Shown here in pieces: positions 387-17,116 of a stretch of DNA of 23,514 nt; the stretch's first letter is position 1, and every line of letters begins with the position of its first letter. The stretch lies in IMG/VR virus record IMGVR_UViG_3300021962_005625, positions 1 to 23,514 of that record; one strand, given 5' to 3'. The notes under the pieces were generated by a model that worked only from the letters and a program-made list of their open reading frames with translations, searched no databases and had not been told where the DNA came from. The stretch comes from a virus. A program made the translations under genes and the position numbers.

Positions 387-653
387 TTAATTTTTATAAG
401 CAATTGATACGACTTTAACATCAGTTCCACTATCAACTTGCAAAGTGTTTGTTCTATGTTTTTCTAAAATTAATTCGGTATTATTTAACATAGTAAATGT
501 ACCAATGTTTGAACCAGCACCATCAGCAATAGTTATTAAATGTTCTTGAGCACCAGTATGCACTAATCTAACCACAACAGCGGTATTAACTGTTGTATTC
601 GAAGCAGAATTTAAAGGAAATTCATTTCCTAAAACGTGTATTAACAATTCCAT
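387..653 (-). CDS. Small beta-rich phage protein of unknown function (88 aa)
   Basis: An 88-residue protein starting at the ATG at 653-651, which overlaps the 3' end of the upstream gene by 13 bases; an AAGGA sits unusually close to the start codon. The composition (many T, V, I, N and alternating hydrophobics, no cysteine, no signal peptide) suggests a small beta-sandwich. Proteins of this size and composition occur in marine phages beside structural genes, but I cannot name the family. Its position in a late operon makes a virion accessory role plausible; this is inference. Confidence 0.7.
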   Translation of the reverse strand: MELLIHVLGNEFPLNSASNTTVNTAVVVRLVHTGAQEHLITIADGAGSNIGTFTMLNNTELILEKHRTNTLQVDSGTDVKVVSIAYKN

Positions 654-1645
654 TTCCTTAATGATTTATTGATGCGTGAATCTGGATCATTTGCTGTTTT
701 TGCAGAAGTCAAACGCTTCTTCATGCCAGACATTCTAGCACAAAATGATTTTCTACGATTGGCTGCTTTCGAACCAGGTTTTAATTTAGATGGTTTTGTT
801 GTAACTGCCATTGAAAGTTTAGAACCTGGATTCTCTCTACGATATGATTCAATACCTTTACGATTTAGGCCACCAGATTCAGATTTACCTTCTTTGCGTT
901 GCCAAGCAGCAACTTCATCCAATTCAACTTCTTCTTTTCTGCAAGAACCTTGTTCATATGCTTTTTTGCCTGGTACTTCTTTATAACCTGGCCAGCATCT
1001 TTCGTTGATGAATGATTTAAATGAAAGCAATTCTTCTTTTTCACTAACAGATTTCCATCCACCACCCATCTCTTTATACTTCTTTGATGCCCAACCATTC
1101 GCATAAGCAGAAGGATATACATCAAACTTAGCTTTAGCTTGTGCTTTAGCTTGTGCCCATTTTTCAGGACTTGTTGGTACATTCTTTTCATCGATTTGTT
1201 CGATTTCTTCTTTCATTTCTTTTTTCCTTTGCTCATTTGACTTTTTATTTGGAGCATCTGGATTCTTGTAGGGTTTAACTCTTAACCCATCTTTGTCATA
1301 ATTTCCAGATTTCTTTTTAGAAATTGCAGTAGCGGCTGCAATAGCAGCTGCTGATGCTTCTGATATCTTTCCTTTACCAAAGTTTGACACGTTGATTGGT
1401 TCACCTTTTCTCTCAGGATTAGGGTCGTGTTTTCTTTTTGCACGAACAGCAGATGCTCTTTCTTTTTTAGTTAGTTGAGCTCTCTTTTCATTTGACATAC
1501 ACTTAGGTTTAGGTTCACCTGGTTCTCTTGCACAAGGACCAATTGCTTCACCTTTACTGTTGATTCTTTTCCAACCACCTTCTGGATCGGTTTTACTGAA
1601 CCACTTGCGTAAATCTTCAACAACAAATGTATTAAATGTTTTCAT
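641..1645 (-). CDS. Three-module basic, cysteine-containing phage protein with DUF6321-like C-terminus
   Basis: A 334-residue, lysine-rich protein beginning one base after the upstream stop, with an AGGG ribosome site before the ATG. Three modules are visible. Residues 1-150 start with a W-x-x-I/V-type segment containing C38 and C49, then a basic Ala/Lys stretch. Residues 155-200 hold an alanine/aromatic segment (KFDVYPSAYANGWASKKY). Residues 216-334 include C217, C235, C302 and C334 and end in a segment resembling the phage family DUF6321 (AWQRKEGK...GGLNRKG...NRRKSFCARM). Modules are separated by IDE (151-153), INE (213-215) and LDE (242-244), each matching the [L/I]xE prohead-protease site. 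The N-terminus MKTFNTFVVE resembles the T4 capsid-targeting peptide. Function is unknown; nucleic-acid binding is plausible from charge. Family names are from memory. Confidence 0.78.
   Translation of the reverse strand: MKTFNTFVVEDLRKWFSKTDPEGGWKRINSKGEAIGPCAREPGEPKPKCMSNEKRAQLTKKERASAVRAKRKHDPNPERKGEPINVSNFGKGKISEASAAAIAAATAISKKKSGNYDKDGLRVKPYKNPDAPNKKSNEQRKKEMKEEIEQIDEKNVPTSPEKWAQAKAQAKAKFDVYPSAYANGWASKKYKEMGGGWKSVSEKEELLSFKSFINERCWPGYKEVPGKKAYEQGSCRKEEVELDEVAAWQRKEGKSESGGLNRKGIESYRRENPGSKLSMAVTTKPSKLKPGSKAANRRKSFCARMSGMKKRLTSAKTANDPDSRINKSLRKWNC
911..938. repeat. 28-bp direct repeat, copy 2 (codes KEEVELDEV)
   Basis: Second copy of the repeat at 23-50. It lies at the linker before the DUF6321-like module (residues 238-245) of the 334-residue protein. 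Identity at the DNA level, including third codon positions, points to recent duplication or gene conversion rather than only protein-level constraint. Confidence 0.85.
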
Positions 1646-1646
1646 A

Positions 1647-3794
1647 TTACCCTACAAATTTCTTTGCTTTAAATGATGAAAGATTGATGCCTACTTTTTT
1701 AAGGTCATCTTCTTTTTTATCACCAATACTCATAGTAGTTTCATCACCAGTTAATTCTGTAACAGTTACTTTACCATCTTTACGTTTTCTGCTGATAGTT
1801 TCTTTTGCGTAACCATTCAATGCCATACCTGGTTCTGTACCACCATCAATTTCATTTATTTTTTCTTTTTGGCGGGCACGGATTTCTTCGAGGGTGATTT
1901 TTTTACTGCCGGTTTCTTCACCTCTGGTTCTGGAACTGGTTGTACTTCCACTTTCGGTGATTCTTCTACCTTCGGTTTCAACTTTAAATAATTGACTAAT
2001 GCTTTTAACATCTTCATTCTCCTTTATTTTAACAACATATCCCTTATCGATTTTATGTACGACACCATTGTGTGTATGAGCCTCTTTGGCTGCATTTCTG
2101 CGTATCATAAAAGTTCTAACTTTACCTTTACCATCTTTCATTAATTTACTATGGTGTAAATCAACTTTGTTAGATTCTTCTATTACCGATACTGTAACCG
2201 ATTCATTTAAAAAGTTTTCGAATTCTTCGTTAACTTTTTTAATCTTCTCAATAGTTTTTGTTTGTGGTACTTGCACGGTTTGTTGTCCTCTTTTTTCTGT
2301 TTCGTTGGCAACTAATTGACCATGCACAACATGATGTGAAACAACACCACCTTTACCCCAACGACCAAAACCAAAATAGGTTAAACCTAATTGTCTTGCT
2401 TGTAGAGTAGCTTTAGAATCTCTATCTGCTGGGTGATGTACAGCTTCTTGTCCTTTTTTAGGAACCGGTAAAGTATCTTTCTTGCCTAATTGCCCACCAA
2501 CCCATTCTTTTGCTTTATCATTCTTAGGTGGTTTAGAAACAAACTTTTGAAAGTTTTTATACAAAGATAACAATTCATCTTTTTTGGTTTTAACTACATC
2601 TGGATGTGCAGAACGCAAATCTTCAGAATTATCAAATTCAACATAGTTATCTTTAAATAACTCTGCAAGTTGTGGTCTTGATTTCTGAACTGAGTCCCAT
2701 TTTTCTTTACGGATGTTTTCCGGCACGGTACGACCACCACGTTGGCCACGCTCAACATTTCTTTGTTGAGAAACTTCATCACGAGTATTAACTGTAATCA
2801 TAGAAGTTTCATAACCAATGGCTTCTAATTTTTCTTTGATGCGTTTGATTTTTTCATAGTCATCACCAGTACCATTGATGATAAGGCCGTTGCGACCTTG
2901 TAGTGCCAATCGTTGGCGCAATTCAGTCATACTTTTAGCTCTTGAACGAACAGCATCTCTTTGTGCTTCTTCGTTATCAGGCATTTTCTTGTCGAGGTTC
3001 TCTTTGTCCATGAGAAACTCAAGTGCCTTATCTGAATTGATTTCAGTTAGGCCATGACCTGCAAGTGTGTTATCAAGAACATAGTCTTTACCAGAACCTG
3101 GACCACCTGCTAAAAATACTGCTTTGAAAATGGCTTTATCGTGGACACCTTCTTCTAAAATTTCTTCAAACAGAATATCAAGTTCTGTTTCTTCTTTAAT
3201 ACCCATATGTTTACGAACATCATGGTACAATTCTTTTGCATGATGTGGTTCAACGTGAGAGGGAATGCCTTTTTTAAATTCTTTAAAATTACCTTTTGCA
3301 GCATGGCCTCTCATTTTAGAGGCTGACATACCAGTTGTGCCTTCAGCATCAGGATCCCGTTCGCCTGCACTATGAACCGTAATCTTTTTAAAATTATATA
3401 ATGCACCTTCGTGTGTGCCATTATATTGTGCGAGTTTCTTTTTGTATTCAGGAACACGGTCAGAACCAGCAACCATGTGTAAATGAGTTACACCTTGTTT
3501 GTGAAGTTTTGCTGCGTGTTGTAGGAATGTTGGATGTTCTTTGTTCGATACTGAAAGATTAGTATCTGGAAAGAATCGTTTTGCGTGTTTTATCTTATCT
3601 TCGGCAGACAGAGGATTCTTTTCCTTGTCTTGCGAATGTGATAATATGACATGATGAGAACCGCCTACTTTTTTGGCGACCTCTTTAACTTTGTCTACAA
3701 GTTTACCATGACCTGTTGTTGGAGGGTTCATCCTTCCAAAAGCCATAACGGCATGGTTTTCTTTTTGTTCTTCTAAAAATTCTCTAAATTTCAT
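1647..3794 (-). CDS. Multidomain protein: NMN adenylyltransferase-like nucleotidyltransferase fused to P-loop kinase-like domain
   Basis: A 715-residue fusion preceded by AGAGG five bases before the ATG. Residues 13-195 form a cytidylyltransferase-superfamily domain: MNPPTTGH at 22-29 is the (T/H)xGH nucleotide-binding motif and GMSASKMR at 155-162 corresponds to the C-terminal ISxTxxR motif; NadM/NadR-type NMN adenylyltransferases are the closest I recognise. Residues 222-415 form a P-loop domain with Walker A GGPGSGKD at 230-237 (Asp where Ser/Thr is usual), like zeta-toxin/polynucleotide-kinase-type proteins. Residues 450-495 and 535-595 hold two further small segments of unknown fold, rich in His. 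NadR shows the same transferase-kinase order, but the kinase similarity is generic. The N-terminus MKFREFLEE and linkers at 208-214 and 525-531 resemble head-targeting/protease sites. A late promoter lies about 40 bases upstream. Possible NAD salvage or nucleotide chemistry; substrate unproven. Confidence 0.8.
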   Translation of the reverse strand: MKFREFLEEQKENHAVMAFGRMNPPTTGHGKLVDKVKEVAKKVGGSHHVILSHSQDKEKNPLSAEDKIKHAKRFFPDTNLSVSNKEHPTFLQHAAKLHKQGVTHLHMVAGSDRVPEYKKKLAQYNGTHEGALYNFKKITVHSAGERDPDAEGTTGMSASKMRGHAAKGNFKEFKKGIPSHVEPHHAKELYHDVRKHMGIKEETELDILFEEILEEGVHDKAIFKAVFLAGGPGSGKDYVLDNTLAGHGLTEINSDKALEFLMDKENLDKKMPDNEEAQRDAVRSRAKSMTELRQRLALQGRNGLIINGTGDDYEKIKRIKEKLEAIGYETSMITVNTRDEVSQQRNVERGQRGGRTVPENIRKEKWDSVQKSRPQLAELFKDNYVEFDNSEDLRSAHPDVVKTKKDELLSLYKNFQKFVSKPPKNDKAKEWVGGQLGKKDTLPVPKKGQEAVHHPADRDSKATLQARQLGLTYFGFGRWGKGGVVSHHVVHGQLVANETEKRGQQTVQVPQTKTIEKIKKVNEEFENFLNESVTVSVIEESNKVDLHHSKLMKDGKGKVRTFMIRRNAAKEAHTHNGVVHKIDKGYVVKIKENEDVKSISQLFKVETEGRRITESGSTTSSRTRGEETGSKKITLEEIRARQKEKINEIDGGTEPGMALNGYAKETISRKRKDGKVTVTELTGDETTMSIGDKKEDDLKKVGINLSSFKAKKFVG

Positions 3795-3820
3795 TTCCGC
3801 CTCTACAGCGATAATATTAC

Positions 3821-3863
3821 AAGTTTACAGACTATTTATGTATTTACGGTGTTCTGTAAACTT
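3821..3863. repeat. Perfect 11-bp inverted repeat surrounding a late promoter
   Basis: The arms at 3821-3831 (aagtttacaga) and 3853-3863 (tctgtaaactt) are exact reverse complements with a 21-base loop. The right arm lies in the last codons of the oxygenase gene ending at 3844; the loop contains its stop codon and the promoter motif at 3833-3840. No U-rich run follows on the minus strand, so a classic intrinsic terminator is not supported. An RNA hairpin at the operon junction is possible. Confidence 0.75.
3833..3840 (-). promoter_or_regulatory. T4-type late promoter (CATAAATA)
   Basis: On the minus strand this reads CATAAATA, one base from the T4 late -10 consensus TATAAATA recognised by gp55-class late sigma factors. 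It lies about 40 bases upstream of the start codon at 3794 in one of the few real intergenic gaps. It would drive the genes from 3794 down to the left edge. T4 late promoters need no -35 element, and none is seen. Confidence 0.65.
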
Positions 3864-4626
3864 CACCGGATGTCTTGGAACTAGACCGTTTTTTAATCAA
3901 TTCAAGTATCTGAGGGTCATTTACTTGGTCACCATATGGTGCAAACAAAGCTTTATCGTGTTTTTCTGATTCCGGTCTGGCTTCAGAAACATAGTAAATA
4001 TTCAATGACTTACGATATACACCTTCTGGACATTGGAGCTCTGTTGGTAGTCCATGCCATGAGTTATCTGCGGTGTCAAATAGAACCGCACGATTAAATT
4101 TATTATACAATTTGGTCACACATTCTTTTGGTAGATTCTTCTCTGCATCATGTGACCAGAATTCTAAACCACCACCCCATTCTTCTTCCCATGCAGGTGT
4201 CATGTAGATGATAATGTTGATGCGTCTTTCTTTGCCTAGTTTAGGATGAATTGAATAATCTTTGTGCATATTCAATTTACCACCTCGAGCAGTCATGTGC
4301 CAACCACCACCATGTAAACCATAATCGGCTTCTAGATTATTGATACCTGTAATTATGCGAATCTTATCAACAAACTCTGGAGTATTCATCAAAGTAAATG
4401 CTCGGTATGTATTTTTAGGAAACAAGTCCCAATTAGGAGTCAGTTTCTTATTCTCAATAGGGTTCTTATATACAGACCAAATTTTAGGGTCATTGAAGTC
4501 TGGAAATTCAGCAGATAGTTTCAATGCAGTTTCAGCATCAAAGAAGTTGTCAATCACCACATGGCGAAATGGTTTGCCTTCTTGATATTGTTTAATTAAC
4601 TTTTCATAGTCAAATTGATTAATCAT
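3844..4626 (-). CDS. 2-oxoglutarate/Fe(II)-dependent oxygenase (prolyl-hydroxylase type)
   Basis: A 260-residue protein with the facial triad of the double-stranded beta-helix dioxygenases: H121 and D123 (MHKDYS), distal H191 (SWHGLP) and a basic 2-oxoglutarate anchor in RKSLNIYY around R205. The strand RINIIIYM and a GGGLEFW segment between them fit the prolyl-4-hydroxylase branch. Such enzymes couple 2-oxoglutarate decarboxylation to hydroxylation of a protein, sugar or nucleotide. It overlaps the upstream gene by 8 bases and is the last gene of the sugar/cyclitol cluster, so a carbohydrate or surface-polymer substrate is possible; protein hydroxylation is the alternative. Common in marine T4-like phages. 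Family call is firm, substrate unknown. Confidence 0.85.
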   Translation of the reverse strand: MINQFDYEKLIKQYQEGKPFRHVVIDNFFDAETALKLSAEFPDFNDPKIWSVYKNPIENKKLTPNWDLFPKNTYRAFTLMNTPEFVDKIRIITGINNLEADYGLHGGGWHMTARGGKLNMHKDYSIHPKLGKERRINIIIYMTPAWEEEWGGGLEFWSHDAEKNLPKECVTKLYNKFNRAVLFDTADNSWHGLPTELQCPEGVYRKSLNIYYVSEARPESEKHDKALFAPYGDQVNDPQILELIKKRSSSKTSGEVYRTP

Positions 4627-5269
4627 GGTATTTTTTAACAGTTATTTGTCGATTCAAAATATTGTGAATAGAGAACAACCTTTCAATAACAAATGAAAAG
4701 TATGGAATAAAATGTCCATTATATTCTCGACCATCTTTGTATATGTAGTTGCTCAACCGTTCATCTTCATCACATAGTTTTAGACATAGGTCAATAAAAC
4801 CAAGGTAATTTGTCCAAAATTTAGAGTTGCCTACAAAATAATTGCAAGTTCCAAAATCTTCAGGTAGATATTTAAACTGTTCAACTGGTGTATTGATGCC
4901 AATTTTTGGAAATAATATTCTTGCAAACTCTAGCATACCTGGATGCCACATATCACCTTGCACCCATAAATTTGGAAAATCATTGGCAAGATATGCAAAA
5001 GGGTCTAGATGATAAACATCGTAACCTTCATTTGCGAGAATCCATTCTTTGAATTTTATTGGTGGTACACCAGTTTTTTGTAACCATCTCCATGACAAAA
5101 GACCCCAATGTAAATCGGAGTCTTTGTGTTGTTCTAATAACTTTCTCCACATCGGCAACTCACGCAAATGTGGTGCATCGTTTGCCGTATTGTCGTAAGG
5201 AGTAAAAGTCGAATCTAGGTGAACAAGTTGTTCTTGCTGGTAATATGCCTGATATAGAATTAAATTCAT
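4619..5269 (-). CDS. Putative glycosyltransferase-like protein of the polysaccharide cluster (216 aa)
   Basis: I start the gene at the ATG at 5269-5267, which forms an ATGA overlap with the stop of the upstream epimerase and follows GGTGA; a longer reading frame to 5350 would run 85 bases into the epimerase gene and is not needed. The protein begins LILYQAYYQQEQ and has an aromatic-rich body (LHWGLLSWRW, NYFVGNSKFW). I recognise this pattern only loosely from uncharacterised proteins in capsule and LPS clusters and cannot name a Pfam family. No signal peptide, membrane segment or clear DxD motif is visible. Its coupling between an epimerase and an oxygenase gene supports a role in glycan assembly; the activity is inferred. 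Confidence 0.7.
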   Translation of the reverse strand: MNLILYQAYYQQEQLVHLDSTFTPYDNTANDAPHLRELPMWRKLLEQHKDSDLHWGLLSWRWLQKTGVPPIKFKEWILANEGYDVYHLDPFAYLANDFPNLWVQGDMWHPGMLEFARILFPKIGINTPVEQFKYLPEDFGTCNYFVGNSKFWTNYLGFIDLCLKLCDEDERLSNYIYKDGREYNGHFIPYFSFVIERLFSIHNILNRQITVKKYHD

Positions 5270-6081
5270 TTCACCATGTCTTGAATGATAGCCTTCATAT
5301 CGTACATTAGAGTGTATCCAAGCGCTGCCAATTTGTCGTTCTTCATCCACATACTACGGACTTGAACTGTCTTGTGGAACTGTGGAATTTCGATTGGATT
5401 TAATTTGCCTTGCCCACCGACTAATTCTTTGGCATACTCAATCATATCTTTAAACAAAAGAGGCATACCATTGCCCACATTATAGATTGTGTTTACTTCA
5501 CCTTTTTCCAATATCAATTCGATTGCTCGGGCAACATCATTGACATGAATATAATCACGATACAAATTACCACCATCATACACATTTACATCACGACCTA
5601 ACTTCAATTCATTAATCATATGTTGAAGTGCGTTCTTTTGTGGTGAGGCTTTCTTATCACCATGACCCGCTACATTGGCCAATCTGAGAATACGATACTT
5701 GATACCAAAAGTTTCACAATAAGAAATCAATAATTGTTCTGCACATCTTTTTGTAATCGAATAGAAACCATTTGGGTAACAATTTGATTCTTCAGTTGCA
5801 GGCATTTCTGTTTCACCATAAACAAACCATGAACTGACAAAGTTAAATGTCAAATTCATATCTTTACATTGACTCAACACCATCATCAACGTCATCAAAT
5901 TAGTTTTGATATCAATGTATGGGTCTGTTTTGACATGGTAATTTGTAACTGTCGAAATCATATAAAGAACATCTTCTGCACCTACGGTGTAGTCATTTCT
6001 TGATTTAACAATACAATCTGGATTTCTTTTCACATAAGCAGAACCAACAAATCCATTACCACCAAATACTTGTACTTTCAT
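5266..6081 (-). CDS. NAD-dependent sugar epimerase/dehydratase (extended SDR)
   Basis: A 271-residue extended short-chain dehydrogenase. The N-terminal Rossmann motif is GGNGFVG at residues 7-13; SSWFVYG (83-89) supplies the catalytic Ser region and YSITK gives Y107 and K111 of the YxxxK pair. The C-terminal half contains DYIHVNDVARAI and YNVGNG, typical of NAD-dependent nucleotide-sugar epimerases and dehydratases. It is shorter than GalE or RmlB (about 330-350 aa), nearer to RmlD/GDP-fucose-synthase-like members. It starts in an ATGA overlap with the 63-aa gene and ends in an ATGA overlap with the next. It probably acts on an NDP-hexose made in this cluster; specificity cannot be read. Confidence 0.88.
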   Translation of the reverse strand: MKVQVFGGNGFVGSAYVKRNPDCIVKSRNDYTVGAEDVLYMISTVTNYHVKTDPYIDIKTNLMTLMMVLSQCKDMNLTFNFVSSWFVYGETEMPATEESNCYPNGFYSITKRCAEQLLISYCETFGIKYRILRLANVAGHGDKKASPQKNALQHMINELKLGRDVNVYDGGNLYRDYIHVNDVARAIELILEKGEVNTIYNVGNGMPLLFKDMIEYAKELVGGQGKLNPIEIPQFHKTVQVRSMWMKNDKLAALGYTLMYDMKAIIQDMVK

Positions 6082-6269
6082 AGTGCAGCTTTAATCATTT
6101 TAATTTCATCTTCAGTGAGATACAATTCAAATTTACTGTAAGTAAGAATAGAACCATCTTCATTGTATGAAGTTTTTTTAAAAACTAATTCTTTCAACTC
6201 TGGTGGGTTAAAAACTGGATTTTTATCTACGGTTAATTTGTAGTGTGGTTTATCAATAATTACTGACAT
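6078..6269 (-). CDS. Small unknown protein in the sugar cluster (63 aa)
   Basis: A 63-residue protein linked by a 10-base overlap with the dehydrase gene upstream and an ATGA overlap with the epimerase gene downstream. It has charged, beta-prone segments (HYKLTVDKNPVF, ILTYSKFELYLTEDEIKMIKAAL) and ends in a short amphipathic helix. There are no cysteines, signal peptide or membrane segment. I do not recognise it. The overlaps on both sides argue that it is translated. Confidence 0.6.
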   Translation of the reverse strand: MSVIIDKPHYKLTVDKNPVFNPPELKELVFKKTSYNEDGSILTYSKFELYLTEDEIKMIKAAL

Positions 6270-7543
6270 GATTTTAATACCTTTTCAATGTAATCAAATA
6301 CTGCATCGTTCCAAAAAGGAGGACAACCTAACAAAAATACATGAGATAGTGCTTTGTTTGCCAATGGATATTTACTTGCATCATCTAGATGTTTAAAACC
6401 TGGATGTAACAATATATTACCAGCAAAATAGTTTCTTGTTTGAATACGATTTGCTTCAAAGAAGGCAACTAACTTTTCTTTCACTTCTTGTGATTCACAA
6501 ATAATTGGAACACCAAACCATGATGGGTCTGACTTCTCTAACTTATCTGCAATACGAACATTCAAATACTTAGTCAGCAGTTTAGATAATCGTTCTTTGT
6601 GTTCTTTTCTTTTCTGGTCTATGTAATCAACTTTTCCTAGTTGTGCAATACCAATAGCACCTTGCATATCAAGTGGTTTCAAATTATAACCTGCATATGC
6701 AAAGATGTATTTGTGGTCGATGATGCCATCATAACCAGGTAACCATTTATCGAATCGATTGCCACAAGTACCACATGGTAACATATTGTTTGAACCGACA
6801 CAATAACAATCACGACCCCACCATGATATAGACCTAGCAACATCAATCAGTTTAATGTCGTTGGATGAAATCATGCCACCTTCACCTGTTGACATATGGT
6901 GTGCGGGATAGAATGATGTTGACCAACAGTAATATAAATCGGTAATTAATTTACCATCCCATTTGGTGCCTAGTGAATCACAATTGTCACCAATCAACAC
7001 AAGATTATGTTTCTTGCAGATATCAACAATCGCATCCATATCTGGTGGGTTTGCCAACACAGGAGAAACAATGATTGCTTTTGTTTTTGGTGTAATCTTT
7101 TCTTCGATTAGATTCACATCAAAGTTTAATGTATCAAACTCAATATCAATGAATACTGGTTTGAGGTTGTTCTGCATCAATGGTGCGATTGTAGTTGGGA
7201 ATCCTACAGGTGAAACGATAACTTCATCACCATCTTGCCATTGTAGATGATTCTTAACTGCGGCCATCATAACCAAATTGGCTGATGAACCAGAGTTTAC
7301 CATGTGCGAAGCCTTCACATTATATTTCTTTGAAAACTTCATTTGAAATTGTTCAACTCTTTCACCAGCAGGCAACCATTTACCTGTTAGAAAAGATTTA
7401 AGACCAGCTGCAAACTCGTCATGGTCCCACAACTGACCAGAATACATCACATAATCTTTTTCTGGATTAAAGTTAGTGTAGTCTTGTTGATATTTTGGTT
7501 TTGCTTGACGAGCAAGTTCTTCAATTAGTTTATCATCAATCAT
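6260..7543 (-). CDS. E1/RfbH-type NDP-4-keto-6-deoxyhexose 3-dehydrase (DegT/DnrJ fold, PMP-dependent)
   Basis: The start is taken at the ATG at 7543-7541, which shares one base with the upstream stop (TGATG), giving 427 residues; a longer frame to 7588 would overlap the neighbour by 46 bases. The DegT/DnrJ/EryC1/StrS fold is clear (NSGSSAN at 83-89, GDNCDSLG, SFYPAHHMSTGEGG). The PLP-binding Lys is replaced by H215, the hallmark of E1 (CDP-6-deoxy-hexulose 3-dehydrase, RfbH/DdhC/AscC) and of ColD. Cysteines C188, C246 and C248 give C-x57-C-x1-C, matching the E1 [2Fe-2S] motif as I remember it, with C257 and C260 next. In the known pathway E1 with reductase E3 removes the 3-hydroxyl to yield 3,6-dideoxyhexoses. 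No E3 gene is visible here. Confidence 0.87.
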   Translation of the reverse strand: MIDDKLIEELARQAKPKYQQDYTNFNPEKDYVMYSGQLWDHDEFAAGLKSFLTGKWLPAGERVEQFQMKFSKKYNVKASHMVNSGSSANLVMMAAVKNHLQWQDGDEVIVSPVGFPTTIAPLMQNNLKPVFIDIEFDTLNFDVNLIEEKITPKTKAIIVSPVLANPPDMDAIVDICKKHNLVLIGDNCDSLGTKWDGKLITDLYYCWSTSFYPAHHMSTGEGGMISSNDIKLIDVARSISWWGRDCYCVGSNNMLPCGTCGNRFDKWLPGYDGIIDHKYIFAYAGYNLKPLDMQGAIGIAQLGKVDYIDQKRKEHKERLSKLLTKYLNVRIADKLEKSDPSWFGVPIICESQEVKEKLVAFFEANRIQTRNYFAGNILLHPGFKHLDDASKYPLANKALSHVFLLGCPPFWNDAVFDYIEKVLKSCQ

Positions 7544-8939: not shown

Positions 8940-10069
8940 ATTTCCTCAAATAAATCAGCTGCCACTCTCAATTCATCGACAGTAACATTATTCAACATTG
9001 TATATTGTCCAATACCAATTGGCACAGGAAGATATTGATTACCATTTCTGTGTTTCTTTGTATCTTCTAAGGCAGACTCAAGTAAACGAACCTTAGAAAA
9101 ATCTTGGTGCCATGTTGGTAGTTTTAATTTTTTAGCACAAATAAAGATTCTCGATAACTGTTCTCTTGTGATATACCCACGAACTTCTGCAATACAAGAA
9201 CTGAACAAACAATCTAACACAACAGCCTCACCGTGATATAGGTTTGGTAAGTTATTCATCTCTATCAAAGGACCAAATGAATGACCAAAGTCAACACATC
9301 GGTCTAATTTCTTTTCCCATAGATTTGGTGCCAATTCATCAATCATACCTGTGATTGCAAGGTTGATTACACGAACAGGTACCGCACCAAATTGAAACTT
9401 CTCATTAATTAATTGTTCATAGTTTTCTTCAAGTAAGACAAACAATTCTTCACTCTTGATAACAGCAAGTTTGAATATCTCAGCAATACCATTAACGATA
9501 TCTCTTTCGTTTTGTGTCTTGATAAACTTCTTGTCGAGAAAGGTTGCGATTGGTGGATAGTATGCACCAATACGATTACGCCTATCAAAATGATTTGCGG
9601 CAACTTTAACACCAACTGAAGCATCTACGATTGCCAATAATGTTGTTGGTATCTTAATGTAAGGAATACCACGGCGATAGATACTGCAACAGAAACCAAC
9701 AAGGTCTAGTAAAACTCCACCACCAATAGCAATGATTGGTTCTCTACGAAGAACACCAACATCTTCAAAGAATCTTAAAACTTCATCTGTATGTTTCCAA
9801 TCCTTGTTTTCTTCTGTTGCATCAATTACAAATAATTTCAACTCAACTTTATGTTTATCAAAAAAACTATGCAAATCATCTTTGTAAATTTCATAAACTG
9901 TTTTATCGATAACAACCAACCTACGATAAGAATCATTATATGACAACAAATCCAAGTTAGATGAATTGAAAATATCACTTGAATATTTGACAGTAAAAGA
10001 AACAGGTAACTCTGCCTTAACAGACCAAGTTCTTTTGAAATTGTCAAAATTAACTAATACATTTTCCAT
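8936..10069 (-). CDS. Sedoheptulose-7-phosphate cyclase, 2-epi-5-epi-valiolone synthase-like (AroB superfamily)
   Basis: A 377-residue member of the 3-dehydroquinate-synthase fold. GGGVLLD (116-122) binds NAD; PTTLLAIVDASVGVK (141-155) lines the active site; E197, H263 and H279 match the metal ligands. Features point to the sedoheptulose-7-phosphate cyclases (EEVS, AcbC/ValA type) rather than AroB: RRGIPYIKIPTTL, ELAPNLWE (245-252) and VDFGHSFGPLIEM (259-271), with Pro where dehydroquinate synthase has the second His of GHTFGH. EEVS cyclises sedoheptulose 7-phosphate to a C7 cyclitol. EVS and DDGS products are alternatives that need pocket comparison. Neighbouring kinase-like, NTP-transferase and SDR genes mirror steps of aminocyclitol pathways. 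It overlaps the upstream gene by one base (TAATG). Confidence 0.85.
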   Translation of the reverse strand: MENVLVNFDNFKRTWSVKAELPVSFTVKYSSDIFNSSNLDLLSYNDSYRRLVVIDKTVYEIYKDDLHSFFDKHKVELKLFVIDATEENKDWKHTDEVLRFFEDVGVLRREPIIAIGGGVLLDLVGFCCSIYRRGIPYIKIPTTLLAIVDASVGVKVAANHFDRRNRIGAYYPPIATFLDKKFIKTQNERDIVNGIAEIFKLAVIKSEELFVLLEENYEQLINEKFQFGAVPVRVINLAITGMIDELAPNLWEKKLDRCVDFGHSFGPLIEMNNLPNLYHGEAVVLDCLFSSCIAEVRGYITREQLSRIFICAKKLKLPTWHQDFSKVRLLESALEDTKKHRNGNQYLPVPIGIGQYTMLNNVTVDELRVAADLFEEI

Positions 10070-11037
10070 TAATTTAAAACCTTACCTAATAAGTTACAGG
10101 CATGAACATAGAAGAACTTTGCCTTTTTAATCTCACCAGCACGACATTTGAATGGCAACATACGAATGAATTGTGTGGCTTCTAATATATTTACCAACTT
10201 AATCCAATTGTTTGGAATCTTCAATTCAAAATAGAAATTGAATTTCTCAAAGTTTTTTGGTATTTCTAAATTATGAGATACACTTGAACCCATAACAACA
10301 ACATCACGGTCATTTATATAACCATAATGACTGCGTGAACACTGTAACACCTGTGCATAATCTAGAAACTTTGTGTCCATCATACTTTCTTCATAGAGGT
10401 CAATAAAAACAACTCTATCTTCCTCAAATGAATACAACATATTTTCCAATGTTGGATTACCATGTATGTTTTCTTCAGAAGAAAGTTTCAAATCAAAGAA
10501 TATATTTTCTAATTCATAAAGATAAGAAAATATACCATGAGTCATTTCACCATTGTATTCAAATACGCCACCTGTAGCATGACCGAAAAATTGTAGAAAT
10601 TCATCATTTATCAAAGCATCATTTAGTTTCTGCCTCACTTCTTCTTTATAATATAACTTAGGCGCACCAATAACTGGTGGATAAGTTTTAGAATGTAGTA
10701 AAGCAAATGATTTCCAAATAGCATCTACTATTTTTATAATCTGTTGCTCAGTTAATTTATCTTCGGATAGAATAGTTTTGATATCTCTAAAACCTTCCAT
10801 GTGTTGTAAAGTCATAACTGCATAGTCTGTTTCATATGAAACATCAATAATTTTTGGAAACAAACTTGGAAAATCAACAGAGTATCTTTGTATCTTCTTT
10901 AATTGAGAATACCAACGAACAAATCCATATTCTCTTTCTTTGACAAGATTGATTTTCTTTTTGACATAATGAACACCATCAATTTCGTGTAACTCTGTGG
11001 TACTTAAAGAACCACCTTTCAAGTCTTTTATTTTCAT
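10069..11037 (-). CDS. Aminoglycoside-phosphotransferase-fold kinase-like protein with HGN in place of HGD
   Basis: A 322-residue protein with an APH/choline-kinase-like layout. The N-lobe has a Lys cluster at 26-28 (YVKKKI); the catalytic-loop motif reads IHGNPTLEN at 191-199, followed by VVFIDLYEE with metal-binding D213, then FLDYAQVLQ. In active members the loop is HGDxxxxN; here the general-base Asp is Asn (N194, codon AAT). It may therefore be inactive, use another base, or bind without phosphorylating. It overlaps the nucleotidyltransferase gene (ATGA), the arrangement of a sugar or cyclitol kinase beside its NTP-transferase, as in LicA/LicC or the cyclitol kinase/NTP-transferase pairs of valienamine pathways. 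Substrate is inferred from context only. Confidence 0.75.
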   Translation of the reverse strand: MKIKDLKGGSLSTTELHEIDGVHYVKKKINLVKEREYGFVRWYSQLKKIQRYSVDFPSLFPKIIDVSYETDYAVMTLQHMEGFRDIKTILSEDKLTEQQIIKIVDAIWKSFALLHSKTYPPVIGAPKLYYKEEVRQKLNDALINDEFLQFFGHATGGVFEYNGEMTHGIFSYLYELENIFFDLKLSSEENIHGNPTLENMLYSFEEDRVVFIDLYEESMMDTKFLDYAQVLQCSRSHYGYINDRDVVVMGSSVSHNLEIPKNFEKFNFYFELKIPNNWIKLVNILEATQFIRMLPFKCRAGEIKKAKFFYVHACNLLGKVLN

Positions 11038-11759
11038 TTTAAACTCATTCTTGCCAATTCAAGGCCGTATTCTTGTGGACTACCAAGAACGATTGTTTCA
11101 TATTCATTATTCAATTCATTTAGACCAATCGACATATTATTCTTTATCATATAGTCTAACACATTTGCAATATACATTTCTTTTCCCATATATCCCTGTG
11201 ATAGAGATTCATACATTTTTTGATATAGATTGGGATTATTAAAACCATAAAGACCAGAACTTGCAAATGGAGAAATAAAAGCCTTCTCAACAATCTCGGT
11301 CACAAGACCATCTTTTGACCTGACATAAGAATATTTTGGATTGTTGGCAACAAACACATCAACATAACCATCAGACATTGTTGATTCAATTTCTTTGAAA
11401 TCTCTGCCAATCAATAGTGTGTCGGCATTATGAACAAAGAAAGGATGGGGAAGGGTATTTCTGTTCTTTAATAGTGAGGCACCAATATAAGCAGTATGTG
11501 CTTGACCACTTGTGTCACCAATATAATGAATATTATCTTTAGTGAGACCAAGTGGTTCAATAGTTTTCACCAAGTTAGGCATGAAATACACATCACGCTT
11601 ATTAGCTAACAATAGGATTTCATCAAATTTACCTAGTTGTTTGAGAATCTCATGGATGATTGTTTCATTTTTCCATGGTAACAAATACTTTGGTATATCA
11701 AAACCAACATCATGGAATCTGGTATTCAAACCAGCCATGCAAATTACTAACGAAGCCAT
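11034..11759 (-). CDS. NTP-transferase (sugar/cyclitol-phosphate nucleotidylyltransferase)
   Basis: A 241-residue GT-A-fold nucleotidyltransferase. The N-terminal signature is present in short form (MAGLNTRF at 8-15, then IPKYLLPW with K24), followed by HNADTLL, the metal-binding Asp region, and a product-loop segment SSGLYGF. Such enzymes join NTP and a sugar 1-phosphate to give NDP-sugar and pyrophosphate. Length is like compact RmlA/LicC-type enzymes without a left-handed beta-helix domain. It overlaps the upstream gene by 13 bases and the kinase-like gene by ATGA. Together these could activate the cyclitol or deoxysugar made by the cluster. Base preference (C, G, T or U) cannot be read. 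Confidence 0.85.
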   Translation of the reverse strand: MASLVICMAGLNTRFHDVGFDIPKYLLPWKNETIIHEILKQLGKFDEILLLANKRDVYFMPNLVKTIEPLGLTKDNIHYIGDTSGQAHTAYIGASLLKNRNTLPHPFFVHNADTLLIGRDFKEIESTMSDGYVDVFVANNPKYSYVRSKDGLVTEIVEKAFISPFASSGLYGFNNPNLYQKMYESLSQGYMGKEMYIANVLDYMIKNNMSIGLNELNNEYETIVLGSPQEYGLELARMSLK

Positions 11760-12451
11760 TGTTCAAAGTCCTCACGAATTAAACTGTGCCAAGTTCCATT
11801 GTATGGACCTGGAGGAAACGGGTGATTGATATCACAGTAAACAAGATTTTCACCAATCAAACCTTTCTGTTTCCAATTTGCACTCATCAAATCTTCACAC
11901 ATCATTTGTGTGCCTGAATCATAAAATTCATCGATACGATTAAATGTATCAGAATATTTGTCCATGTTTTCAGATGAAGAAAATGCAAATTGGTCATTGC
12001 CAAAATCACGACTTGGTACCATACGGCAATTAGGTATGTGAAGTTTACTGTTATCTAATTCTTCAAATGGAATTTTAGCATTGATTGCAAAATCAAAACG
12101 ACTACGAATGACCCAATCAAACTTCATACTGTTTTCATCTTCATATACAAGTTTTAATTCGTTGCACTTTAAGATAGCATACAATTGATTATATGTTGAA
12201 CGGACTGGATCTTTTACTTTCCAATTTGGTTGTGGTGGTGGAAATCTTGTGTATTTTGATAAGTCATCAGTTAAAGATTTCTCCATCATATACGCTTCAG
12301 GTTTATAAAGTTCAATATCTATGACCTCTGGATTTTCCCAAACATGGCAAAAAACGGTAACATCGTTACCGTCTAGTATGTTGCGTTTAACAAACTCATA
12401 GCCTTGTTTTACACTACGAGGTTGTCCTGATAGACATAATGCTATTTTCAT
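11747..12451 (-). CDS. Putative glycosyltransferase-like phage protein (234 aa)
   Basis: A 234-residue protein starting MKIALCLSGQPRSVKQGYEF, a beginning I recognise from uncharacterised proteins in surface-glycan loci and large phage genomes. It contains DWVIRSRFDFAI (a possible metal/nucleotide-binding DxD-like site within RSRFDF), FGNDQFAFSSSENM, and a C-terminal HPFPPGPYNGTWH segment. The layout resembles small GT-A-like transferases, but no named family can be assigned with confidence. No membrane span. It starts in an ATGA overlap with the RmlB-like gene, so it is co-translated with nucleotide-sugar enzymes. Confidence 0.68.
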   Translation of the reverse strand: MKIALCLSGQPRSVKQGYEFVKRNILDGNDVTVFCHVWENPEVIDIELYKPEAYMMEKSLTDDLSKYTRFPPPQPNWKVKDPVRSTYNQLYAILKCNELKLVYEDENSMKFDWVIRSRFDFAINAKIPFEELDNSKLHIPNCRMVPSRDFGNDQFAFSSSENMDKYSDTFNRIDEFYDSGTQMMCEDLMSANWKQKGLIGENLVYCDINHPFPPGPYNGTWHSLIREDFEQWLR

Positions 12452-13476
12452 TTAAGCCACTTATCATTTTCTAATGACCAGATAACCATATCTCTAATGC
12501 GTTCACGCAAAGAAATCTTTGGTTTCCATCCTAAAGCTGCCATGTAATCACCAGATAATGCATAACGCAAATCATGGCCAGGTCGTGATGAATGGAAATC
12601 AACCATTTCATATTTGAGTTCTTTGTTTTGTGCTTCTGCGATAAGTTTAGCCAACTCTAAATTATCTACTTCATCAGGTCCAACAATGTTAAATTTAGGA
12701 ATCTTTGCACCACCAAAATCAGGAACTTTGGCATAATCTTCAGGTAAATTGAGAATAAACATCAAACCATCAGCAACATCTTTTGCATGAACATAGTGCC
12801 GAGAACCGGCTTTAGTTTTACTTCTGTCTGAATGAATAGTTAGTGTTTCACCATCACGAGCATATCGAATGGCTTTAGGAATAAATTTCTCTGGATGCTG
12901 ACGTTCACCAAACACATTCATTGTGTGTGTAATGTAAATTGGCATATTGTAAGTGTTCTCAAAGGCAACACACATTTCTTCACCCGCTGCCTTGCTGGCA
13001 GAATAAGGATTCGTAGCATTATATCGGTCTCTCTCTTTATAGTCAACACCTTCAGGTGCAGGTCCAAATACTTCATCAGTTGAGAAGTATACAAACCTCT
13101 CCAAGTTCTTTAGTGTTCTTGAAAATTGTAAAAGGTTGACTGTGCCGATAACATTATCTTGCACAAATTCCATTGGAAATTCAATTGAACGGTCTACATG
13201 AGAACCAGCTGCAAGGTGTAACACAAGTTGGCAATCACCAATCAAACCAGCGGTTTGTGGATTAACTTCTGCTCGCAAATCGTGAAAGACAATCTCAACC
13301 CGTTTCTTTTGTTCGGGTGAATATTTCTTCATAATATCTTCTAGGCGATTTAAATTGCCAGAGAAGTCTAGTCGGTCAAGTGATACAATTGTCCAATCTG
13401 TGGTGTCCAGAATAGTTTCAATTAAATGATGTGCAATAAAGCCTGCACCGCCGGTGATTAATACTCGTTTAGTCAT
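12448..13476 (-). CDS. NDP-glucose 4,6-dehydratase-like protein (RmlB family)
   Basis: The start is the ATG at 13476-13474, preceded by GAGGA at a good distance; the frame extends to 13575, but that would overlap the upstream gene by over 100 bases. The 342-residue product has GGAGFIA (9-15) for NAD, LHLAAGSHVDRSI (87-98), STDEVFG (132-138) with catalytic Thr/Asp/Glu, and Y158/K162 in YSASK. SRPGHDLRYALS near the C-terminus is typical of RmlB. Length fits dTDP-glucose 4,6-dehydratase; a CDP-glucose enzyme would better suit the E1-type 3-dehydrase downstream, and the two cannot be separated by eye. It makes an NDP-4-keto-6-deoxyhexose, the usual branch point to deoxysugars. Confidence 0.87.
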   Translation of the reverse strand: MTKRVLITGGAGFIAHHLIETILDTTDWTIVSLDRLDFSGNLNRLEDIMKKYSPEQKKRVEIVFHDLRAEVNPQTAGLIGDCQLVLHLAAGSHVDRSIEFPMEFVQDNVIGTVNLLQFSRTLKNLERFVYFSTDEVFGPAPEGVDYKERDRYNATNPYSASKAAGEEMCVAFENTYNMPIYITHTMNVFGERQHPEKFIPKAIRYARDGETLTIHSDRSKTKAGSRHYVHAKDVADGLMFILNLPEDYAKVPDFGGAKIPKFNIVGPDEVDNLELAKLIAEAQNKELKYEMVDFHSSRPGHDLRYALSGDYMAALGWKPKISLRERIRDMVIWSLENDKWLK

Positions 13477-14317
13477 TATATTTTTCCTCGATAATTTTGC
13501 GCCATTCTGGTATTCTATCATACTGATGCACAATTGTAAAGTCTTTTCCTCTAGATGTTGTAACATTGCCTGCAATCATTTTTGGTGATGCTTCTAATAA
13601 GAAAGGTCTGAATTGTTCTATCTTACTTGGGTCAACAGTTGTACCCAATTGACAAGCCCAACCATCTTCTGATTTACAATATCTTGCTGTTGACAAATAT
13701 GGTTCTTGTGAAATCATAAAGTTAAATGTTGATTGGTCTACAATTGGTATTGGTCGATTGACTGACATGGCAAAAATCATTGCTGCCAAATCTTGAATAG
13801 CATGGCCACGACCAGCAAGAACACCCACATTATAAATTTCATTCTCTTTGAAAATATTGTGGAAGAAAGGACCAAATGTTTCAATCAAATTTTGATTGCC
13901 CCATGGTTCATCTTTGTAGTACATACTTTCGGAAGCAAATAGGTACAGTTGTCTTGCACCTAGTTCTAAGTCTAATGCTTCAGATGGGTTGTGTTGGAAG
14001 ATAACATCTTTCACATCGGTTGTGATAACATACCGATATTCATCATGTGTTTGTAGATAGTTGTAAATGTGGATGAATCGTTCCACATGGATTGGTAAGT
14101 TAGATTGATAGGTGAATTGTTTGTTCACCTCATCGGATTTACCAGGAACAATAACTTGGAAACCAGCTTTAGTTAATCTGTCAACAGTTTCAAAGCTTAT
14201 ATTAAAGGCAACCATAACCTTGTCGCCAGTAAAACCACTTCTGTTTATTGAGTTAACCCAATACTTTAATTTGTCCCAATCATAGTTGGTGCAAGCACCT
14301 ATAATCAAATCTTTCAT
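13469..14317 (-). CDS. Putative GT-A glycosyltransferase (282 aa)
   Basis: A 282-residue protein with GT-A-like features: an N-terminal strand LIIGACTNYDWDKLKYWV, the segment YVITTDVKDVIFQHNP whose D101 and D104 could form the metal/nucleotide-binding DxD-type site, then YNVGVLAGRG and PIVDQSTFNFMI, as in galactosyltransferase-like and DUF616-like proteins. No signal peptide or membrane segment. It is the first gene of the coupled sugar cluster, with a weak GGA before the ATG and a 22-base gap from the small gene upstream; its end overlaps the RmlB-like gene by 8 bases. Donor and acceptor are unknown. Confidence 0.75.
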   Translation of the reverse strand: MKDLIIGACTNYDWDKLKYWVNSINRSGFTGDKVMVAFNISFETVDRLTKAGFQVIVPGKSDEVNKQFTYQSNLPIHVERFIHIYNYLQTHDEYRYVITTDVKDVIFQHNPSEALDLELGARQLYLFASESMYYKDEPWGNQNLIETFGPFFHNIFKENEIYNVGVLAGRGHAIQDLAAMIFAMSVNRPIPIVDQSTFNFMISQEPYLSTARYCKSEDGWACQLGTTVDPSKIEQFRPFLLEASPKMIAGNVTTSRGKDFTIVHQYDRIPEWRKIIEEKYND

Positions 14318-14339
14318 AATATTCCAATCAGTTAAATAA

Positions 14340-14504
14340 TTACTTATGTCGCCTATACTCTTTAAACCTGGTAATCTTTTGACCTGGTGTATCTTTTAGA
14401 TAAGTATTTTTCAACTCATCTGTACCCCATTGACCTGCACCAGCTTTTGGTAGAATATCTTTTTCTACTTTCTCTCTTAACTTTCTTACAGCACGGACAA
14501 TCAT
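14340..14504 (-). CDS. Small basic unknown protein (54 aa)
   Basis: A 54-residue reading frame from the ATG at 14504-14502 to the TAA at 14342-14340, with AGAGG five bases before the start and only one base between it and the upstream stop. The product (MIVRAVRKLREKVEKDILPK..., ending RFKEYRRHK) is rich in Lys and Arg, with an N-terminal helix and a GAGQWG turn. It fills what would otherwise be a 188-base gap, and the strong ribosome site argues that it is real. No family recognised. Confidence 0.62.
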   Translation of the reverse strand: MIVRAVRKLREKVEKDILPKAGAGQWGTDELKNTYLKDTPGQKITRFKEYRRHK

Positions 14505-14505
14505 A

Positions 14506-14787
14506 TCATCCTCTAGTTAGGTTTAATATTTTTTGAATCTGTGATTCTAATACAGGCTTTCGATTAGGCCACTTAATGATAGGTTGGTCTGCCGTCTGTA
14601 ACAGTTTTGTTAGAAATGGAAGAATCAATTTCTCAACTTCATGTAGTCTTGCTTTGTATTCTTCAACAGTATCTTCTTTTTCAGCAATAATCGAATTGTA
14701 TTCTTCTTCATCGATTGCCGTAAAACCAAAATCATTATCGCCGTATTCGGCCATAATGGAACTTAAATCAAATTTTTTCTCTGCCAT
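14506..14787 (-). CDS. Small acidic helical phage protein (93 aa)
   Basis: The chosen start is the ATG at 14787-14785, sharing one base with the upstream stop (TAATG); a TTG four codons earlier is the alternative. The product starts MAEKKFDLSSIMAEYGDNDFGFTAID, is acidic in its first half, has a probable helix or short coiled coil at about 35-65 (EEEYNSIIAEKEDTVEEYKARLHEVEKLIL), and ends in a basic tail with KWPNRKP. I know similar short proteins from T4-like marine phages only as unnamed. A structural adaptor role is possible but unsupported. Confidence 0.65.
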   Translation of the reverse strand: MAEKKFDLSSIMAEYGDNDFGFTAIDEEEYNSIIAEKEDTVEEYKARLHEVEKLILPFLTKLLQTADQPIIKWPNRKPVLESQIQKILNLTRG

Positions 14788-16016
14788 TATTTGTCCCAAT
14801 TCTTAGCTGCATTAAAGTTGGCGTGGGCAAATTCTAACCTATCAACCAATTTAACTGCGTTACCTTTTAATTTATCTACTGCAACAAAACCTTCTGGTGC
14901 AGTAATTCTAAACCCATCATCAGTACGAATGAAAGTACCAACATCACGAATAGTTTCTAATTTGCGAATGATTTTTAATTTTGCATCAACAATCAGATTC
15001 ATAAAGTCAAATACTTTACGCAACTCAGATGCATTACTGCGGTAGAATCGCATAACTTCATTCTTTTCAGCAACTCTTTTCTTCCTAGTATCTTCTTTCT
15101 TGGCATCAAGAACGTGTTGATTTAATTTTGCTTCAATCGTTTTAATTAATTCTGTTGTATGTTTCTGAGTATCTTTGATTCTTTCACCAGCACGAACTTT
15201 GGTGTTGTTGAATGTTGCAATTTGAATTCTGATAGTTTCAGTAGATGCAATGCGATTAACTGTCAGAGAAGAAATCGATTGAAATATTCTACCTGCTTGT
15301 GATAAAATGCCTGTCAATTCTTTTGTTTCATCTTCTGTAAATGTGGCTGAACCTGAAGCATCAACAAATGATGCATCACGGAACCAAACATCTTTTGTTG
15401 ATGATAATTTACCGATATCAATATTAAAAGATGCTTTCATATCTTCAATAGTTCTGCCTGTGTATGAAGTATGAAACACAATACCCATTTGTGCAGCTTG
15501 CATAGACGCAGCAAGTTTAGAATCGGATGGTATGGCATAAACAATTGTATTTGGTTGAAATGTAATATAGTTTTCACCATCGATTGTTTGTTTCTTTAAA
15601 TCACCTTTAGAGAACATCATATCACCTTGCAGAATACCTTTGATGCCTAACTTAGGCAAGTATCGCAAAGCAACTTTTAATTTCGCATTAAGACCTTCAG
15701 ATGGGTGATTGTTATCAATATCTTCATCGGTATAGTTTAACTTGGCATTTTTATTAAAGACGCCTTTAGTACCAACAAAGAACTTACCATTCTCAGGATT
15801 AATACCACAGAATACGGCAGGCGCACCATCCCATTTCGTGGTAATGTTCACTTTAGATTTTGCATGACCAGCAAGCATATCTCTCAACGACTGTAAGAAA
15901 TTAATTGCATCACGACCACCTTGCACACCACGATTAAGAATCTCATCCTCAATATGTTCGAGGTGTAGGTTCTTACCTGTTGCTGTTGCTTCCGTTAAAA
16001 ATTCTTTGAATTTCAT
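14787..16016 (-). CDS. KxDG-motif nucleotidyltransferase/ligase-like protein (DUF6267-like), possible head-targeted protein
   Basis: A 409-residue protein. TTKWDGAPAVF at 59-69 matches motif I (KxDG, K61) of covalent nucleotidyltransferases such as DNA and RNA ligases; GTKGVFNK (82-89), GILQGDMMF (127-135) and TIVYAIP (157-163) sit where motifs II-IV would be expected. The C-terminal half (about 220-340) is helical and charged. I associate this with the phage family DUF6267, from memory. It may adenylylate itself or a nucleic acid end, or be a degenerate relative. The first residues MKFKEFLTEA closely resemble the T4 capsid-targeting peptide MKTYQEFIAE-A, with LTE as cleavage site. It is second in the operon behind the late promoter near 17113. 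Confidence 0.72.
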   Translation of the reverse strand: MKFKEFLTEATATGKNLHLEHIEDEILNRGVQGGRDAINFLQSLRDMLAGHAKSKVNITTKWDGAPAVFCGINPENGKFFVGTKGVFNKNAKLNYTDEDIDNNHPSEGLNAKLKVALRYLPKLGIKGILQGDMMFSKGDLKKQTIDGENYITFQPNTIVYAIPSDSKLAASMQAAQMGIVFHTSYTGRTIEDMKASFNIDIGKLSSTKDVWFRDASFVDASGSATFTEDETKELTGILSQAGRIFQSISSLTVNRIASTETIRIQIATFNNTKVRAGERIKDTQKHTTELIKTIEAKLNQHVLDAKKEDTRKKRVAEKNEVMRFYRSNASELRKVFDFMNLIVDAKLKIIRKLETIRDVGTFIRTDDGFRITAPEGFVAVDKLKGNAVKLVDRLEFAHANFNAAKNWDK

Positions 16017-17090: not shown

Positions 17091-17116
17091 AATACTCCTA
17101 TCAATTTTGGAGTATT
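17091..17116. repeat. Perfect 8-bp inverted repeat spanning ribosome site and late promoter
   Basis: The arms at 17091-17098 (aatactcc) and 17109-17116 (ggagtatt) are exact reverse complements with a 10-base loop. On the minus strand the promoter-proximal arm overlaps the late promoter ATAAATA and the distal arm contains the GGAG ribosome site of the gene starting at 17088. Transcripts beginning upstream could form a hairpin hiding the ribosome site, while those starting at the late promoter would probably lack most of one arm. Confidence 0.7.

Follow-up and report, generated by a model that had tools for sequence, protein, structure and literature searches.

The 23.5-kb IMG/VR virus record IMGVR_UViG_3300021962_005625 (23,514 nt, analysed at its full length and hereafter called the window), which carries T4-type gp41 helicase and UvsX genes at 18485-21201, encodes two predicted enzymes whose N-termini resemble the capsid-targeting sequence (CTS) of phage T4. 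We consider it quite likely that these leaders, on a 715-aa adenylyltransferase/kinase starting at 3794 and a 409-aa DUF6267 protein starting at 16016, are counterparts of the T4 CTS, and that the enzymes are bound to the prohead core, cut by a gp21-type protease, loaded into the head and carried into the next host. The basis for this reading is the leader itself, its conserved determinants, the protease, scaffold and capsid genes of the lineage, an association with late promoters, and an association with virion detection in relatives. A third protein, of 334 aa and starting at 1645, has a weaker leader; it is probably a virion protein, but not necessarily through the tag.

Leader pattern and its frequency

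An initial annotation of the window had proposed that three proteins carry T4-type leaders, and all three N-termini were indeed found at ATG starts: MKFREFLEE (3794), MKFKEFLTEA (16016) and MKTFNTFVVE (1645). Each has, at the very N-terminus, two aromatic residues three positions apart (F3/F6, F3/F6 and F4/F7, respectively). These are followed by [I/L]-x-Glu in the first two leaders (LEE and LTE); the third reads VVE, with Val in place of the consensus residue, and was rightly called the weaker match. The leader was modelled as disordered, in a stretch with a predicted local distance difference test score (pLDDT) under 50.

As a stand-in for the whole genome of the window's phage we used a 135.9-kb IMG/VR contig with the same genes (G001), in which the 715-aa and DUF6267 proteins are 100% identical to those of the window and the 334-aa protein has equal length and start. 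Leaders were sought with a strict, T4-like pattern (M, 1-4 residues, [FYLW]xx[FY][ILVMF]xE), and internal sites with a core motif ([FYW]xx[FYW][ILV]xE). The strict pattern had four matches in the window, namely the three named proteins and a TTG codon that lies within the 641-1645 frame. Among the 200 called open reading frames (ORFs) of the stand-in contig there were likewise four leader matches, three of them the named proteins and the fourth a 71-aa ORF. Across 14 phages (a set that includes DLP_6, a siphovirus by name), the pattern matched 43 of 4298 Met codons near gene starts vs. 19 of 10983 internal ones (odds ratio 5.8; p 1.8e-11, a value that is optimistic because the 14 genomes are related). 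The initial annotation's own expression, MK[TSF][FY]xxF[ILV]xE, matched only one of its three proteins. The core motif occurred 10 times in the 43,494 called residues of the stand-in contig, with five occurrences inside the three named proteins, which make up 3.4% of the residues (p 9e-6). Judged from their sequences, the leaders at 3794 and 16016 are more than a product of chance.

When applied to T4, the strict pattern matched ipII, ipIII and 61.1 at annotated starts, plus one site inside the uvsW frame; it missed ipI, whose leader diverges. Gene 61.1 (NC_000866.4, L231 18966-19130), the only annotated-start match besides ipII and ipIII, encodes a 54-aa hypothetical protein that begins MKTFKEFIKED and is possibly a further internal protein. 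The single literature mention of 61.1 in that role that was followed up turned out to be a journal volume number.

Conservation of the leader and the prohead genes

Leader counts were made on the best 80 loci for DUF6267 and for DUF6321 and the best 40 for the kinase protein. One of the 80 DUF6267 loci and three of the 40 kinase loci were set aside, and the rest had a readable N-terminus. The leader was kept in 78 of 79 readable DUF6267 relatives and 34 of 37 readable kinase relatives, and was retained in four DUF6267 proteins at 30-33% identity. Melnitz-3 is an example of a phage with a leader-bearing DUF6267 protein. One of the six DUF6267 scan patterns was the leader itself (its exact letters occur in 3 of the 78 leaders), and one kinase scan pattern overlapped the end of the kinase leader. 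When the two families were aligned without redundant sequences (leaving 21 and 24, respectively), positions 3, 6, 7 and 9 were the least variable among residues 2-13, while residues 4, 5, 8 and 10 varied. This range was picked after the entropy calculation, and a wider one would not yield the same four positions because residue 14 has lower entropy than residues 6 and 7 in the DUF6267 alignment. The four positions are the T4 determinants shifted by one, and E9 is nearly invariant in both families. As reviewed for T4 IPIII in the passages covered, the first ten residues suffice for packaging, also when joined to a foreign protein, with residues 4 and 7 acting mainly in targeting and 8 and 10 in processing (PMC9026906).

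Leaders also cluster in a candidate cargo island of S-CRM01, where g130 (the kinase), g129 and g127 have strict leaders, g131 has a leader-like start and g128 has a leader after a short extension. The S-CRM01 kinase is present in virions, as cited in the S-CREM2 paper (PMC10665884).

The stand-in contig, on which the prohead genes were read rather than on the window itself, has homologs of gp21, gp22 and gp23 (T4-type prohead protease, scaffold and capsid) side by side. We take T4 gp23 to be cleaved after FGSFLTE. At the corresponding position the other five capsid proteins read, from sequence, LTE-A, LAE-A, LTE-A, LNE-A and LTE-A. Cleavage by gp21 occurs after L/I-x-E, and the CTS has been suggested to let T4-like phages package various proteins (PMC9026906). 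Just before the gp21 homolog of the contig (48503-48937; L217) lies a 144-aa ORF beginning MKFVELIAENK, which by place and start recalls T4 gp67, a prohead core protein.

Late promoters and published virion proteomes

The motif ATAAATA is presumably the late promoter of these phages. It occurs twice in the window, vs. 10.0 copies expected by chance, and TATAAATA does not occur there. The proposal that both enzyme genes lie just behind late promoters held for the gene at 3794, 38 bp from its motif, but not for the other: the second ATAAATA sits 24 bp before the start at 17088, and the 16016 gene is therefore the second gene of that unit. In 13 phages the motif was found within 70 bp upstream of 13 of 38 leader genes vs. 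230 of 2877 others (p 5.6e-6), and this link was strongest in S-CREM2 (4/4 vs. 17/209). On the stand-in contig, 18 of 19 copies were followed by a called gene at a distance of no more than 150 bp, and the scaffold gene was one of these genes.

Virion proteins of three relatives were then compared with the remainder of their 719 annotated proteins. The lists were taken from Table 3 of the S-CREM2 paper (52 proteins; PMC10665884), Table 1 of the S-SZBM1 paper (30 proteins; PMC9146016) and the S-SCSM1 record, in which 48 coding sequences are marked as virion proteins vs. 45 according to the paper (PMC9602691); here and below, statements on these papers refer to the tables and passages covered. 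S-CREM1, with 14 detected proteins, was excluded from the pooled counts. The strict leader was present in 7/130 virion proteins vs. 4/589 others (p 0.00095), the main source of the signal being S-CREM2 (5/52 vs. 1/167, p 0.003). A T4-derived pattern that allows only F, Y and W at both aromatic positions gave 6/130 vs. 5/589 (p 0.0066), and the expression of the initial annotation was powerless in this comparison (1/130 vs. 1/589). A looser pattern, in which the hydrophobic and Glu positions were left free (13/130 vs. 24/589, p 0.0085), was dropped as too unspecific.

Homologs of the adenylyltransferase had both the leader and virion detection in three of three phages, whereas the DUF6267 homologs of the same phages had neither (0/3 and 0/3). 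The supposition that such proteins are not annotated as virion proteins was only partly right, since adenylyltransferase homologs have been reported in virions of S-CREM2 (PMC10665884), S-SCSM1 (PMC9602691) and S-SZBM1 (PMC9146016); entry into the host was proposed by the authors of the first two. In S-CREM2, the four enzymes that the virion list assigns to regulation or DNA metabolism all carry the core motif within 35 residues, vs. 3/167 non-virion proteins. It stands at the start of the SAM (S-adenosylmethionine) hydrolase, the APH/ChoK-like kinase and the cytidylyltransferase, and in the Cas9-annotated protein (L207 7704-10313) it reads FASFMAE at residues 19-25, behind a short extension. 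The starts of S-CRM01 g128 and S-N03 QIN96773 resemble the latter, with a CTS-like core behind a short extension. Taken as a whole, the T4 residues in the leader, its retention in relatives, the protease and core genes of the lineage and the detection contrast (3/3 vs. 0/3) suggest that the leaders of the enzymes at 3794 and 16016 are probably functional as head-loading tags.

Leader-like motifs at domain junctions

Motifs resembling the leader were also found where domains meet, and at one of these junctions a gene starts in relatives; as read from alignments, this is new here. The RCWPGY module of the 334-aa protein begins, in 19 relatives, 10-13 residues after the first ATG of a gene of its own, and 12 of these 19 starts match the strict pattern. 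Of 30 aligned members of the 715-aa family, 10 have FxxLLxE-G between the adenylyltransferase and the kinase, the FEEILEE of the window being no strict match, and 18, among them the protein of the window, have the core motif behind the kinase region. These three tallies were made by eye from alignment rows, some of which are near-duplicates. The linker between adenylyltransferase and kinase (residues 201-219) was modelled as disordered, with pLDDT under 50. HTVC008M encodes the kinase in a gene of its own, the product of which begins MIPFILKE at this boundary. Fusion and splitting of genes headed by leaders would be the simplest interpretation, with the motif staying behind as a candidate protease site.

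Alternative explanations

Several observations weigh against head loading through the leader. The strict pattern was settled after the S-CREM2 N-termini had been viewed, and neither S-SCSM1 (1/48 vs. 1/234) nor S-SZBM1 (1/30 vs. 2/188) is significant alone. SCSM1_30, SZBM1_191, SZBM1_192 and CREM2 gp175 match the pattern yet were undetected in virions. HTVC008M has no strict match, though the protein families are present; the DUF6267 protein of S-CRM01, g132, has no leader beside leader-bearing genes; and the link between ATAAATA and leaders is weak on the stand-in contig (1/4 vs. 16/196). The 14 virion proteins detected in S-CREM1 comprise four structural ones, nine whose function is unknown and one that matched nothing (PMC9964418). 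The NadR-like homolog of that phage begins MKRYTNFLSEA and therefore has a leader; it goes unnamed in the paper's text on detected proteins, a text that leaves the list to its supplement.

For the Cys-rich 334-aa protein, the case as tagged cargo is weaker. We give slightly less than even chances to the view that it is a virion protein needing no leader, and that MKTFNTFVVE is CTS-like by descent or chance. Besides the off-consensus VVE, only 8 of the 80 DUF6321 loci were readable, with a strict leader in two and none in the other six. Three DUF6321 homologs (SCSM1_29, CREM2 gp137 and gp160) are leaderless virion proteins; a fourth, the above-mentioned SZBM1_192, has the leader and was not among the virion proteins. 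The S-BM3 homolog adjoins the small terminase gene. Against this view stands the second module of the protein, which as a gene of its own has the leader-like start described above.

It is unlikely that the leader targets proteins to the prohead core but stays uncut or only partly cut, so that the tag is kept. In T4, Asp at position 10 stops processing, not targeting (PMC9026906), and the leaders at 3794 and 1645 read LEE-Q and VVE-D; the near-invariance of E9 in both families and the T4-like LxE-A of the capsid proteins, however, argue for cleavage. That abundant late proteins stick to particles while the leader has another role, e.g., as a short helix aiding folding or partner binding, is quite unlikely: contamination, which also counts against head loading, is allowed for by the proteome authors (PMC10665884, PMC9602691) and cytidylyltransferase peptides were few (3 in S-CREM2, 2 in S-SZBM1), but contamination predicts neither a leader common to unrelated enzymes, nor the T4 determinants, nor the DUF6267 contrast.

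In the reading that we favour, the leaders at 3794 and 16016 are CTS counterparts. Both enzymes would be made late in infection and held to the prohead scaffold core by the aromatic pair of the leader. A gp21-type protease would cleave after the leader Glu, leaving mature enzymes in the head, and these would enter the next host together with the DNA. The junction motifs suggest that cutting into separate parts in the prohead also affects the 715-aa protein and, less certainly, the one of 334 aa.

Predicted functions of the proposed cargo

In 25 DUF6267 sequences K61, D63 and G64, as well as E375, G376 and V378, were invariant. We take KxDG to be the nucleotidyl-lysine motif, and the second set an EGxV-type motif, of ATP-dependent RNA ligases. 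RNA or DNA ligases filled the top 34 rows of a structural second look, the best of them being a borderline match (Z 8.0; root-mean-square deviation 3.8 for 184 residues); Foldseek by itself gave no significant match (best E 0.51). Compared by sequence with solved structures, the single protein had no match with an E of 1 or less, and the profile matched two keratins plus one weak unrelated entry. No paper on DUF6267 was found in the literature search. From the model, which is new here, the DUF6267 protein appears RNA-ligase-like, a borderline assignment.

The 715-aa protein begins with a domain of adenylyltransferase fold, with phosphopantetheine adenylyltransferase (PPAT; Z 14.5) and nicotinamide mononucleotide adenylyltransferase (NMNAT; Z 13.9) tied. 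An assignment as specific for nicotinamide mononucleotide was dropped, as the fold scores fail to separate PPAT from NMNAT; the S-CREM1 record nevertheless names its homolog NadR-like. The second domain is similar to adenylate and polynucleotide kinases (E about 1e-5 in Foldseek), and the whole protein matched phrog_3462 at E 0.004 only. Judged by fold, the cargo would thus comprise an RNA-ligase-like enzyme, an adenylyltransferase and a polynucleotide- or nucleotide-kinase-like domain. DUF6267 and an adenylyltransferase are fused in phrog_455 and in locus L072, and therefore the two may work together; the L072 fusion (4205-5998) is a single 598-aa protein without a leader. An injected kit for RNA repair or cofactor repair is our guess. 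No match to the 715-aa, DUF6267 or 334-aa proteins was found with PADLOC.

Ten leader proteins from other genomes were compared with Pfam: four matched DUF6267 or DUF6321 and one a RimK-like family above the cut-offs, GNAT and DUF5872 were matched below them, and three had no match. The RimK-like ATP-grasp protein is from Melnitz-3 (L273 82-1128; leader MTQKFSQFITEE) and the GNAT-like protein from S-CRM01 (L247 19045-19437; leader MKTFDEFLTEG). These two could be early modifiers of host proteins.

Other features of the window

Coordinates are collected in Table 1. Directly behind the second late-promoter motif, at 16018-17088 (-), lies a phrog_1462 gene without a leader, whose S-SCSM1 homolog, SCSM1_90, is a virion protein. 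The 371-aa protein at 17130-18245 (-) weakly matches DruA in Pfam (PF14236) and in PADLOC, a domain named from an antiphage system and found here in a phage. Between the two late units, at 5266-13575 (-), runs a series of genes that by eye resemble sugar-nucleotide or glycan genes, with epimerase/dehydratase, aminotransferase, sugar-phosphate cyclase and nucleotidyltransferase-like ORFs.

Table 1. Positions in the window of the three proteins, their leaders and internal motifs, and the late-promoter motifs.
Feature	Position	Strand	Remarks
715-aa protein	1647..3794	-	ATG; adenylyltransferase fold, P-loop kinase, variable C-terminal part; Pfam CTP_transf_like, Zeta_toxin/AAA_33; from model and fold matches
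409-aa DUF6267 protein, RNA-ligase-like (borderline)	14787..16016	-	ATG; Pfam DUF6267 E 7e-117; invariant KxDG; structural second look
KWDG motif of DUF6267 protein	15825-15836	-	
334-aa protein with C-terminal DUF6321	641..1645	-	ATG; Pfam
Leader MKFREFLEE of 715-aa protein	3768..3794	-	In 34/37 readable relatives; low variability at residues 3, 6, 7, 9
Leader MKFKEFLTE of DUF6267 protein	15990..16016	-	In 78/79 readable relatives
Weaker leader MKTFNTFVVE of 334-aa protein	1616..1645	-	Val at processing position; strict leader in 2/8 readable relatives
Adenylyltransferase/kinase junction FEEILEE, residues 209-215 of 715-aa protein	3150..3170	-	Departs from strict pattern in window
Internal core motif FENFLNE, residues 525-531 of 715-aa protein	2202..2222	-	After kinase region
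Internal core motif FKSFINE, residues 209-215 of 334-aa protein	1001..1021	-	Directly before RCWPGY module
ATAAATA, presumed late-promoter motif	3833..3839	-	38 bp before 3794 start
ATAAATA, presumed late-promoter motif	17113..17119	-	24 bp before 17088 start; 16016 gene second behind motif

Relation to known systems

Virion detection of the adenylyltransferase and its suggested entry into the host are already published (PMC10665884, PMC9602691). No report of a signal of the present kind in cyanophages or aquatic T4-like phages was found in the literature searched, which lacked most subscription papers and preprints. A wider proposal, which we advance tentatively and hold to be possible rather than probable, is that aquatic T4-like phages label a changing enzyme cargo with a single portable address code that the protease removes, and that they reuse this code inside polyproteins, each of which would supply several enzymes released one from another. 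The cargo here would be a pre-made RNA- or NAD (nicotinamide adenine dinucleotide)-repair kit for early infection, e.g., against RNA-cutting or NAD-draining host defences. If this is true, a ten-residue tag would predict the proteins that T4-like phages of a large group bring into the cell, and late genes of unknown function would become testable lists of entry effectors. It would also account for the enzymes that recur in cyanophage virion proteomes, and the junction motifs would represent a new way of building multi-enzyme cargo.

The closest parallel is with T4 IPI, IPII and IPIII, which share an N-terminal tag of 9-10 residues with an aromatic pair and [I/L] plus Glu (PMC9026906, PMC3012670, PMC12373910), and likewise are late genes with otherwise unrelated bodies in a genome with gp21-type protease and core genes (PMC9026906). 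Unlike these small restriction inhibitors, the candidate cargo here consists of multidomain enzymes of 409-715 aa; similar motifs occur at domain junctions as well, and two of the three leaders are one residue shorter. Enzymes reported from cyanophage virions include adenylyl- and cytidylyltransferases, a kinase, a SAM hydrolase and a Cas9-annotated protein (PMC10665884, PMC9602691, PMC9146016). The adenylyltransferases of S-CREM2, S-SCSM1 and S-SZBM1 are homologous to that of the window, bear a leader of this kind and were detected by mass spectrometry; in those phages, in contrast, DUF6267 is leaderless and undetected, and the authors name no packaging signal in the passages covered. The proteins also recall polyvalent proteins, in which several enzyme domains are joined in one protein that is predicted to be injected (PMC5512222); packaging of the latter was deduced from context and domains, whereas here a tag and candidate protease sites point to it. 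Finally, head proteins of phiKZ and SPN3US are packaged, ejected and processed after Glu (PMC9026906, PMC10052503), as is proposed here. The phiKZ motif is S/A-x-E (PMC9026906), whereas in the present leaders an aromatic pair precedes [I/L]xE.

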